Positions 28,979-32,126 of a stretch of 64,000 nt of DNA are shown here, piece after piece. The DNA is from Nitrospirales bacterium (GTDB taxonomy: Bacteria > Nitrospirota > Nitrospiria > Nitrospirales > UBA8639). How positions within the stretch are numbered: the first letter of the stretch is position 1; each line of letters begins with the position of its first letter. The DNA lies in contig JAJDBM010000038.1 of assembly GCA_029261355.1 (NCBI GenBank), forward strand, positions 1 to 64,000. The letters run 5' to 3'. The notes under the pieces were generated by a model. It was not told the origin of the DNA, did no database searches, and was given only the letters and a program-made list of their open reading frames with translations. The translations under genes were made by a program, and so were the position numbers.

Positions 28979-29422
28979 TTAACCTCGATGTGTAAATCCC
29001 TGGGCCACAACAATGGTGCATTCCCGTTTATAAGTCAAAATGGACCATTGATGAACATCCACCTTGACATCGTACAATCCATCAAGGTTAGGATGCTTTT
29101 CCCTGATGGCAAGGAGGGCTTTTTTATAGCTTCCATCCCCCGTCGCTCCCGAAACACTCGTTCGATCCGTCGCAGAAAATATAATGGGAATGGAAAGCCC
29201 ATGCTGACAACTATTGCCCTTAACTTCCCCGATTGAAACCACATCACCTGGCTTCTCATTGGCGGTTAAGGTCTGGTAGGACAGTGGTGCCTCAGAGTCA
29301 TAATACAAGACAAATCCTCCGACAAAAATCAGCCCAGGGCGAGCCTCATATGCCCATCGTTGCGGCTGAGAACAACCAGCCCCGACGACACACACACCGA
29401 TCAATATCAGCACGACTTTCAT
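28979..29422 (-). CDS. TRL-like family lipoprotein, second of a pair
   Basis: This protein of about 147 residues starts at the ATG 29420-29422, which overlaps the stop of the upstream TRL-like gene (ATGA); this decides the start over one 11 codons earlier. It has a lipoprotein-type signal (VVLILIGVCVVGAGC) and the TRL-like pattern: GDVVSIGEVKGNSCQH, GDGSYKKALLAIREKHPNLDGLYDVKVDVHQWSILTYKRECTIVVAQG. The family is named for a gene in a tRNA-associated locus; its function is unknown. It is probably anchored in the outer membrane. Confidence 0.75.
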   Translation of the reverse strand: MKVVLILIGVCVVGAGCSQPQRWAYEARPGLIFVGGFVLYYDSEAPLSYQTLTANEKPGDVVSIGEVKGNSCQHGLSIPIIFSATDRTSVSGATGDGSYKKALLAIREKHPNLDGLYDVKVDVHQWSILTYKRECTIVVAQGFTHRG

Positions 29423-29778
29423 ACTGATCCCACTTTTCCTGTCACGACCGTACATGTCCTGGTATACAGGCCAAAAAGATAGGCCGTGGCTTTTACATCA
29501 ACATGAACATCATAGAGAATCGAACTCGTTGGTTCGTTCATCAAGGCATGGCCAATGGCGCCAACATATCCACCATTACCCCATGCCACTAAGAACAGAA
29601 CGGATTGATTGCAACTCTCCCCAACCACAACTTTATCCGTGACCTGAGCTTTCACATCGATCGGACTTGCTGACCGATAGGCTCTTGGAACCTGAATGTC
29701 AGTGTACAGACACCCACTCAGAAACATCGATGCGACTACCAACATCATCCACATTTTCGTCAAGTGTCGTTTCAGCAT
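29419..29778 (-). CDS. TRL-like family lipoprotein, first of a pair
   Basis: This 119-residue protein has a lipobox-type signal (VASMFLSGC) and conserved TRL-like segments: KVVVGESCNQSVLFLVAWGNGGYVGAIGHAL and ILYDVHVDVKATAYLFGLYTRTCTVVTG. It is a paralogue of the next gene, with which it is translationally coupled. The second Cys pair (ESC, RTC) is shared by both and could form a disulfide. Function unknown. Its promoter would lie in the 360-base gap shared with the divergent cysteine-repeat gene. Confidence 0.75.
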   Translation of the reverse strand: MLKRHLTKMWMMLVVASMFLSGCLYTDIQVPRAYRSASPIDVKAQVTDKVVVGESCNQSVLFLVAWGNGGYVGAIGHALMNEPTSSILYDVHVDVKATAYLFGLYTRTCTVVTGKVGSV

Positions 29779-30138: not shown

Positions 30139-31467
30139 ATGACTATGAATAAATTCCCAAACGCCAAAATTCGTAGGGAGTATCGATTGAACAATGATCG
30201 AATTCGAAGGCTGACACTGGGCCTCGGAATAATCATGACCATAGGGGTCATGTTACCCAATACAGCAATAAGTCAGCCGACTGCCAAGAGAGAACAACCT
30301 GATTCTTCAGCGCAGCCTCAACACCTTCATATCCCCTCGCAGTCGTTATCTGCCTCAAAACGGTCTCATTCTGAAACCTGCCTGGGCAATATTCCTTGCT
30401 ACAAAAAGACCTTAAAAACCGTCGTCAAAACACAGGGGACAGAAGAGGCTCTTCAACTGATCGAACAGATAGTCGAAAAGGACCACGTCGCCCTACGTGA
30501 AGCCCACAATCTCACTCATTACGTTGGACGTATGTCCTATCGATACCTCAAGGACGTCACAGCGGTGATGTCCCAATATACGCCCGCTCATCAATCTGGA
30601 TGTTATCATGGTGCGTTGGAAGCCTATCTCACCAGTAAACCACATATTGAAGCAGATGATGTCGTGGCTATCTGCAGTTCCAAACTTGAGAAAGAAAAGG
30701 GACGATTCGCATTTTTCAATTGCTTCCATGGGCTAGGCCACGGTCTGACTATGCATTTCAATCATGACATCAAGCAGGCGTTAACCCTGTGCGACAAATT
30801 GAGTATGACATGGGATCAACAGTCCTGTTATGGCGGAGTCTTCATGGAAGGCGTGGTCACCGGCGTCAAAGGTTCGCAACATCACAACGAACATCATGGG
30901 AAAAATGACCATCACCACCATGCTAAACTTGTTGACCCGAACAACCCGTTGTATCCATGCTCAGAACTTGATCCAAAATATTTGCGAGAATGCTATATGA
31001 TGCAAACTTCTATTATTTTGCACCTCACTCATTATGATTTCGCCAAATCCTTTGCAGTATGCGACACCGCGCCGAAAGGCATGAGACCCACGTGCTACCA
31101 AAGTATGGGAAGAGATATTTCTGGCCACACTCTCAGAAATATTGAACAATCCATTCGTCTCTGCCAATTAGGAACGGCTATACACCGCAATCGTTGCTTC
31201 ATTGGTGTCGTGAAGAATTTCCTCAATGTTTCTGGTCGAGCTTCGGACAATGCCTTTGAGTTTTGCCGGCAAACTCCTGAAGCACATAAAAAGGATTGCT
31301 ATCACGCAATCGGTGAAGAACTGCTCGTCCTGTATGCAAAAACACAACAGCGTGCACCTAAATGTACTCACGCAGAAACGCCGTACATTCAGGATTGTCG
31401 CCGTGGAGCCCGTCTGACGCTTGCTCAATCTTCAACATCCATCACTCATATGCCCCCTCTATTTTGA
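30139..31467 (+). CDS. Secreted cysteine-repeat protein with His-rich insert
   Basis: This 442-residue protein has an N-terminal membrane/signal segment (about 24-46). The body is built of helical units marked by C-[YF]: GCYHG, NCFHG, SCYGG, ECYMM, TCYQS, RCFIG and DCYHA. From the third unit on, the spacing is near constant: C-x10-C-[YF] and then 22 residues to the next Cys, a 34-residue period. One unit carries a His-rich insert (SQHHNEHHGKNDHHHH). The pattern suggests a disulfide-stapled helical solenoid, comparable in idea to Helicobacter Sel1-like Cys-rich proteins but with different spacing. I do not recognise the family. Its stop overlaps the next start (TTGA). Confidence 0.65.
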   Translation: MTMNKFPNAKIRREYRLNNDRIRRLTLGLGIIMTIGVMLPNTAISQPTAKREQPDSSAQPQHLHIPSQSLSASKRSHSETCLGNIPCYKKTLKTVVKTQGTEEALQLIEQIVEKDHVALREAHNLTHYVGRMSYRYLKDVTAVMSQYTPAHQSGCYHGALEAYLTSKPHIEADDVVAICSSKLEKEKGRFAFFNCFHGLGHGLTMHFNHDIKQALTLCDKLSMTWDQQSCYGGVFMEGVVTGVKGSQHHNEHHGKNDHHHHAKLVDPNNPLYPCSELDPKYLRECYMMQTSIILHLTHYDFAKSFAVCDTAPKGMRPTCYQSMGRDISGHTLRNIEQSIRLCQLGTAIHRNRCFIGVVKNFLNVSGRASDNAFEFCRQTPEAHKKDCYHAIGEELLVLYAKTQQRAPKCTHAETPYIQDCRRGARLTLAQSSTSITHMPPLF

Positions 31468-32126
31468 ACGTACTCTTTTACCCTTTCCATCTTTGTCACG
31501 AACGCACCCTTCAGCAGTTACTCGCCGATTTCGAACAGGTCCATTTTCGCGATTACATGGCGTTACAACTCTCGCCCATGATGGGAACCGTCGCATACCC
31601 TGACAGAATGGGTGATGACTATCCGGATCTATTGAACACGGGGCGAATTGTGCAGGGACATTCAGTGAGCGGAACCATGAGTGCGGACGTCGTGACTGCC
31701 GTCAATCAAGATTTAGGTGATCAACGCTGGCGATCATCTTTTCATGAAGCGTTATTGCATAACCTACAATTTCAACGCGGCCTCGTGACATTTGCCCAAG
31801 ACAGTCAAAGAAGAAGTACGAAACCAGTAGATTCCATTGGTCTCTTGAAGTTACAACAGCCAGAGTGGGAGTTCACGCCATTTCAAGTAGAAATGATCAA
31901 GGCCCTGAGCGGAAAACGTCTATCAGGTGAAGAACATGATCGCTATGAATACGGATTTGCTCTAATCAAAACGGCAGCCTCACTGAGTTATACGATACAT
32001 CTGTGTCAAGACATGAATCTGGATTCGGCAACCGATTCGGCTTCACATCATGACTTACTGATGAAAACATGCGAACGAAACCACGTCACCCTCATCAATC
32101 ATCTCATACAGCGGGAAGGCTACTAG
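31464..32126 (+). CDS. Conserved-looking hypothetical protein coupled to the Cys-repeat gene
   Basis: This 220-residue protein is read from TTG at 31464, which overlaps the preceding stop (TTGA). The resulting start, NVLFYPFHLCHERTLQQLLA after the initiator, is more protein-like than the out-of-register extension to 31362. It contains HFRDYMALQLSPMMGT, GRIVQGHSVSGTMSADVV and a helical C-terminal half with several His and Cys. It has no signal peptide or membrane segment, so it is probably cytoplasmic. No known domain is recognised. The coupling implies a stoichiometric or functional link with the secreted partner. Confidence 0.65.
   Translation: MNVLFYPFHLCHERTLQQLLADFEQVHFRDYMALQLSPMMGTVAYPDRMGDDYPDLLNTGRIVQGHSVSGTMSADVVTAVNQDLGDQRWRSSFHEALLHNLQFQRGLVTFAQDSQRRSTKPVDSIGLLKLQQPEWEFTPFQVEMIKALSGKRLSGEEHDRYEYGFALIKTAASLSYTIHLCQDMNLDSATDSASHHDLLMKTCERNHVTLINHLIQREGY

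Follow-up and report, generated by a model that had tools for sequence, protein, structure and literature searches.

The closest described relatives in architecture of the protein reported here are the Helicobacter cysteine-rich proteins (Hcp; Sel1-like; PDB 1OUV and 1KLX), which are exported alpha-alpha hairpin solenoids with repeated Cys residues and one disulfide per hairpin, one Cys lying close to where the short helix ends and the other in the next helix. The Sel1-like unit of Hcp is 36 residues long and has a C-x7-C spacing. Hemerythrin and the type-3 copper proteins hold binuclear metal sites in which five or six His residues, including HxxxH pairs, are supplied by helices. COA7, a Sel1-like protein of mitochondria that binds heme and has disulfide reductase activity, is involved in cytochrome c oxidase assembly; its helical repeats are stapled by disulfides and lie in an oxidising compartment. 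Its disulfide bridges are reported to join Cys residues with nine or eleven residues between them (PMC6505684).

We analysed a stretch of 64,000 nucleotides (the window) from a Nitrospirales bacterium, a relative of nitrite oxidisers, and found that one of its genes, P0001, which is single-copy in this genome, codes for a protein that is architecturally similar to the Cys-stapled Sel1 proteins yet falls outside their family in sequence and fold searches (Table 1). The Cys residues in the C-terminal half of P0001 (positions 274, 285, 308, 319, 342, 353, 376, 387, 409 and 420) form five C-x10-C pairs separated by spans of 22, 22, 22 and 21 residues, and the second Cys of each pair is directly followed by Tyr or Phe, with the exception of C420. 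Thus the cysteine repeat reported in the initial annotation is real, but the C-x10-C spacing, which had been assigned to the last four pairs, extends to five. Only 1 of 20,000 same-composition shuffles of P0001 matched this five-pair array, the mean among shuffles being 0.6 such pairs. The Cys residues of the N-terminal half (81, 87, 155, 179, 195, 218 and 230) have other spacings that are not strict.

Table 1. Positions in the window of P0001, its sequence features and the neighboring gene P0002.
Feature	Position	Strand	Basis or detail
P0001, 442-aa exported-looking Cys/His helical-repeat protein	30139..31467	+	ORF, profile, structure model
Signal peptide or membrane anchor, N-terminal, residues ~22-46	30202..30276	+	sequence RRLTLGLGIIMTIGVMLPNTAISQ; model helix 10-35
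HxxxH motif, H123 and H127	30505..30519	+	H123 169/170, H127 170/170
Y147 codon, Cys in sister genomes; C155 thereby unpaired, in this copy only	30577..30579	+	sole discordant row of 170
CYHG motif, H157	30601..30612	+	H157 170/170
CFHGLGH motif, H197 and H201	30721..30741	+	H197 169/170, H201 170/170
CYGGVFME motif: C230, G233, M236, E237	30826..30849	+	C230, G233 170/170; E237 159/170
His-rich loop (HHNEHHGKNDHHHH), residues 248-261; His/Met-rich and <=100 residues in Gemmatimonadota	30880..30921	+	
Strict 34-residue array C274 to C420, five C-x10-C hairpins	30958..31398	+	
P0002, 220-aa cytoplasmic-looking alpha/beta protein; neighbor, not part of the system	31464..32126	+	

An AlphaFold2 model of P0001, made with an alignment of the family (A2; pLDDT 84.6, pTM 0.78, with pLDDT >90 across most of residues 80-430), predicts an all-helical hairpin solenoid in which short (~8 residues) and long (~18 residues) helices alternate, as had been proposed from the repeat alone. 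The alpha-alpha hairpin solenoid characteristic of the Sel1 family is therefore present in P0001 at the level of prediction, and the model places the Cys residues where the short helix ends and some two helical turns along the long one, which resembles their arrangement in Hcp. P0001 differs from Hcp in its 34-residue unit, in its C-x10-C spacing and in the addition of five invariant His residues.

By sequence, P0001 has no match in Pfam, NCBIfam or PDB, and a profile search of PDB produced no significant match to any protein (nothing below E = 0.2), which separates it from COA7 as well as from other Sel1-like proteins of known structure. Among the 64 members of alignment A2, none matched the Sel1 repeat profile at E <= 0.01, and a Pfam scan found only the cupredoxins in N-terminal extensions and sub-threshold noise; Herpes_UL16, Rtt106 and other Pfam families appeared sporadically below cut-off, and we rejected them as chance matches. 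A Foldseek search of PDB with the P0001 model yielded no match at E <= 0.001, the best (insignificant) ones being generic solenoids of the TPR, armadillo and HEAT types, with TM-scores of about 0.2. Searches of the literature turned up no account of the P0001 family. These sequence and fold searches uphold the suggestion that the repeat belongs to no described family, and we conclude that P0001 represents a new family built on a known architectural principle. The initial annotation had also set its Cys spacing apart from that of Sel1-like proteins. The separation from Sel1 stands, through the lack of a profile match, but spacing is a weak discriminator because COA7 is reported to have bridges between Cys residues with nine or eleven residues between them (PMC6505684).

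The family has a second conserved feature, which the initial annotation did not mention: five near-invariant His residues. When we aligned 170 non-redundant copies of the domain, all five (H123, H127, H157, H197 and H201) were present together in 168 of them. Residues C179, C195, C218, C230, C274, G200 and G233 occur in every copy, most other positions that are not Cys or Gly vary, and the identity of members to P0001 outside its genus is roughly 20-40%. In the P0001 model, the five His and E237 are located on four consecutive long helices, and from this predicted arrangement we infer that the five His would meet in space. Such a set is similar to those of hemerythrin and the type-3 copper proteins by analogy, the metal site of P0001 being putative; we found no homology to these proteins by Pfam matches in family members, or by sequence or fold searches of PDB. 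An HxxxH/H/HxxxH set is not known from COA7.

Cys residues in the family are lost pairwise, which supports the proposal of one disulfide per hairpin. Of the 170 copies, 68 have both C122 and C151, 102 have neither and none has only one of them, and C147 and C155 are concordant in 169. The 122/151 pair occurs alone in 45 copies, the 147/155 pair alone in 101, and both pairs together in 23, leaving the protein in the window as the sole exception. Its unpaired C155 would be explained by a genuine single-base substitution in codon 147 or by a sequencing error there. Using a tree built without the tested Cys columns, we found that positions 147 and 155 change together in 6 of 6 informative phylogenetically independent pairs (sign test, p = 0.031), position 155 being the same in a seventh pair; supported changes at 122/151 are too few on the tree for an independent-pair test. 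C308 and C319 were lost jointly in three rows, all of them from one array and perhaps representing one event, and C342 and C353 were lost jointly once. On this covariation, which is indirect evidence, one disulfide per helical hairpin, as in Sel1-like proteins, is well supported for the P0001 family.

A His-rich insert in P0001 had been proposed to bind metal. The insert is present, as a low-confidence loop in the model, but its length varies from ~15 to 100 residues over the 170 copies, 29 of which have no His there, and the invariant His are the five others, in helices. Long inserts contain 11% His and 4% Met, compared to backgrounds of 1.7% and 2.2%. At the site of the P0001 insert, Gemmatimonadota loops contain DHAGHDM- or HAGHDM-type runs, and in four Gemmatimonadota members (L211, L078, L214 and L205) these His/Met-rich loops reach as many as 100 residues. 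Loops of this His/Met type are characteristic of copper proteins.

Cupredoxin is the only recurrent domain fused to the repeat domain. It is N-terminal in 8 of the 64 members, in Patescibacteria, and C-terminal in L173, and a stand-alone cupredoxin adjoins the domain at two further loci (L086 and L170). The Pfam family PF13473 scores above cut-off in the L086 neighbor and in L099, L105 and L107, and a profile search recovers the cupredoxin fold, with a match to amicyanin at E = 1e-8. The partner domain is therefore a cupredoxin by sequence, like amicyanin and plastocyanin (Pfam Cupredoxin_1), to which the P0001 repeat domain itself is unrelated. The partners share an invariant WPAS-x2-H-P-x-H ... 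D ... H-x-H set but lack the full complement of type-1 copper ligands (His, Cys, His, Met): one His ligand is conserved, Cys is replaced by Asp, and Met is not conserved. Because Asp occupies the position of the copper-binding Cys of amicyanin, the partner cupredoxins are not type-1 blue sites, and judging from these substitutions they may not be ordinary electron carriers. Among Patescibacteria, a cupredoxin is present in 17 of the 22 genomes with the repeat domain and in 93 of the 358 without it (Fisher p = 2e-6, uncorrected for kinship among genomes), in a comparison that is not fully independent since the cupredoxin profile used (A5) was built from family-linked sequences. This profile matches the window's own genome only weakly and in a generic way, so the link to copper rests mainly on other lineages.

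Clustering of gene neighborhoods in Nitrospira and Gemmatimonadota revealed no conserved operon or partner gene. Elsewhere, a ZIP transporter adjoins the family gene at L095 and another is near the one at L098, and membrane-anchored cytochrome-b5-like genes lie immediately after family genes at three loci: L092 (6915-7367), L080 (2447-3325, below the Pfam cut-off) and L084 (1022-1468, identified by eye). In the Saccharibacteria locus L086 (3238-5366) a six-transmembrane region, ferric-reductase-like by eye, is fused to the repeat domain, and the stand-alone cupredoxin begins 3 bases downstream. A heliorhodopsin gene (464-1243; Pfam E = 2e-93) is located directly upstream of the family gene in another Saccharibacteria locus, L091, and a gene near-identical to it by eye is present in L097 (4428-5207).

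The near-invariant His residues, together with the frequent joining of the repeat to cupredoxin domains, suggest a copper-handling or redox protein of a type not recognised before. Our preferred reading, which we hold with about even confidence, is that P0001 is an extracytoplasmic, disulfide-stapled metalloprotein on a solenoid, probably linked to copper. The five His (HxxxH, H, HxxxH) and the Glu on the next helix would make up a single buried site for metal, probably with a mono- or binuclear centre and most likely with copper in it; the disulfides would brace the solenoid so that the site is held in the periplasm or outside the cell; and metal or electrons would reach the site through the His loop and the cupredoxin modules. 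Outside the cytoplasm, the protein would then probably bind or relay copper, or carry out redox chemistry based on it. We suggest only tentatively, and with more doubt than belief, that the family constitutes a new class of metalloprotein, in which HxxxH/H/HxxxH/E ligands on successive helices of a disulfide-stapled alpha-solenoid hold a binuclear copper or iron centre. Such a class would be paired with a non-blue cupredoxin, would occur across many phyla and would have expanded into gene arrays in ultra-small Patescibacteria.

The same five-His site could instead hold a non-copper centre (hemerythrin-like non-heme di-iron, zinc or heme) in a protein that handles oxygen, iron or heme. Five His with a carboxylate recall the ligation of hemerythrin, COA7 is a Cys-stapled solenoid that binds heme, and the ZIP transporters, the cytochrome b5 domains and the ferric-reductase-like membrane region at L086 all point in this direction; indeed, the ZIP and cytochrome b5 neighbors fit zinc, iron or heme equally well, which weakens the case for copper. 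We nevertheless consider a non-copper centre unlikely, because cupredoxin is the only domain recurrently fused to the repeat and because of the copper-protein character of the His/Met loops. It is more improbable that P0001 is a peptide- or protein-binding scaffold of the Sel1/TPR type with structural His residues: its solenoid architecture, and the TPR, armadillo and HEAT proteins among its best fold matches, would suit such a function, but those matches have TM-scores of only about 0.2, and the retention of exactly five His, with two HxxxH motifs among them, in 168 of 170 divergent copies would be unusual for packing residues.

The gene immediately downstream, P0002, had been proposed as a coupled partner of P0001, a proposal that our comparisons contradict. 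Its TTG start codon overlaps the TGA stop codon of P0001 (31464-31467), and this TTGA overlap persists in L047, whereas a gap of ~80 bases takes its place in L049. P0002 is conserved and single-copy, with a YPFHLCH motif and ~50-58% identity outside the genus, and it is present in 31 of the 49 genomes of the taxonomic family whereas P0001 is present in 7. In one genome (G026) P0002 is elsewhere, the two genes being on different contigs, and in another (G028) its DNA-ligase and aldo-keto-reductase neighbors (named by eye) are those found in the window but there is no P0001; in other genomes it adjoins a YchF-like GTPase (also named by eye). P0002 has no family match. Its predicted model has a mixed alpha/beta fold, for which a search of PDB gave weak Rossmann-like, cyclodipeptide-synthase and RNase P matches, none of them at E <= 0.001. 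The adjacency of P0001 and P0002 is a genus-level feature and not a lasting coupling. That they form a two-gene functional unit is very improbable: each of the five genomes of the genus has them side by side, some with the overlap, but P0002 mostly occurs without P0001, the two are apart in G026, P0001 is missing from G028, the overlap is absent from L049, and an exported protein is unlikely to partner directly with one that looks cytoplasmic. On the other side of P0001, two small adjacent lipoprotein-like ORFs (28979-29778, minus strand) lie upstream of it and divergent from it, and are conserved in sister genomes.

P0001 is an exported-looking protein whose undescribed family is spread widely, through many phyla of bacteria and some of archaea. 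The seven genomes of the taxonomic family in which a single-sequence search detects P0001 comprise all five sampled from its genus and two from another genus; the nearest named contigs are from the Nitrospirales MAGs NPIRA01, 02 and 04, and single-sequence scans of genome contigs and viral contigs found none. To reach more distant relatives a six-row profile was needed, which found members in the genus Nitrospira and, beyond Nitrospirota, in Gemmatimonadota, many Patescibacteria lineages, Woesearchaeota, Binatia, Deltaproteobacteria, Rokubacteria and other lineages, most of these records being MAGs in which single assignments may be binning errors. The profile also found the family in the cultured Methylocystis rosea. 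In even samples of genomes, the family is present in 27 of 296 from the window's phylum, 22 of 380 from the phylum of the Patescibacteria locus L100, 41 of 150 Gemmatimonadota (about a quarter), 3 of 194 from the phylum of the Woesearchaeota locus, and 1 of 198 from the phylum of L108. A plasmid search gave two remote matches only, in Gemmatirosa and Kitasatospora. Two Patescibacteria genomes of 0.6-0.7 Mb have 10 and 7 family matches, largely in one array. The arrays in these two genomes, which span the whole of locus L121 and positions 4400-12678 of L122, consist of divergent members, several of them with cupredoxin N-termini.

The reciprocal loss of Cys pairs in this family is a clean natural record of disulfide rewiring within one fold. 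Although Pfam, NCBIfam and PDB lack the family, it occurs in Nitrospira and in 41 of 150 Gemmatimonadota, and reaches at least seven copies in Patescibacteria with genomes of only 0.6-0.7 Mb. Should its members bind copper or iron, they would represent a metal-site scaffold not described before, and the conspicuous expansion of the gene in ultra-small bacteria would gain a role that can be tested.
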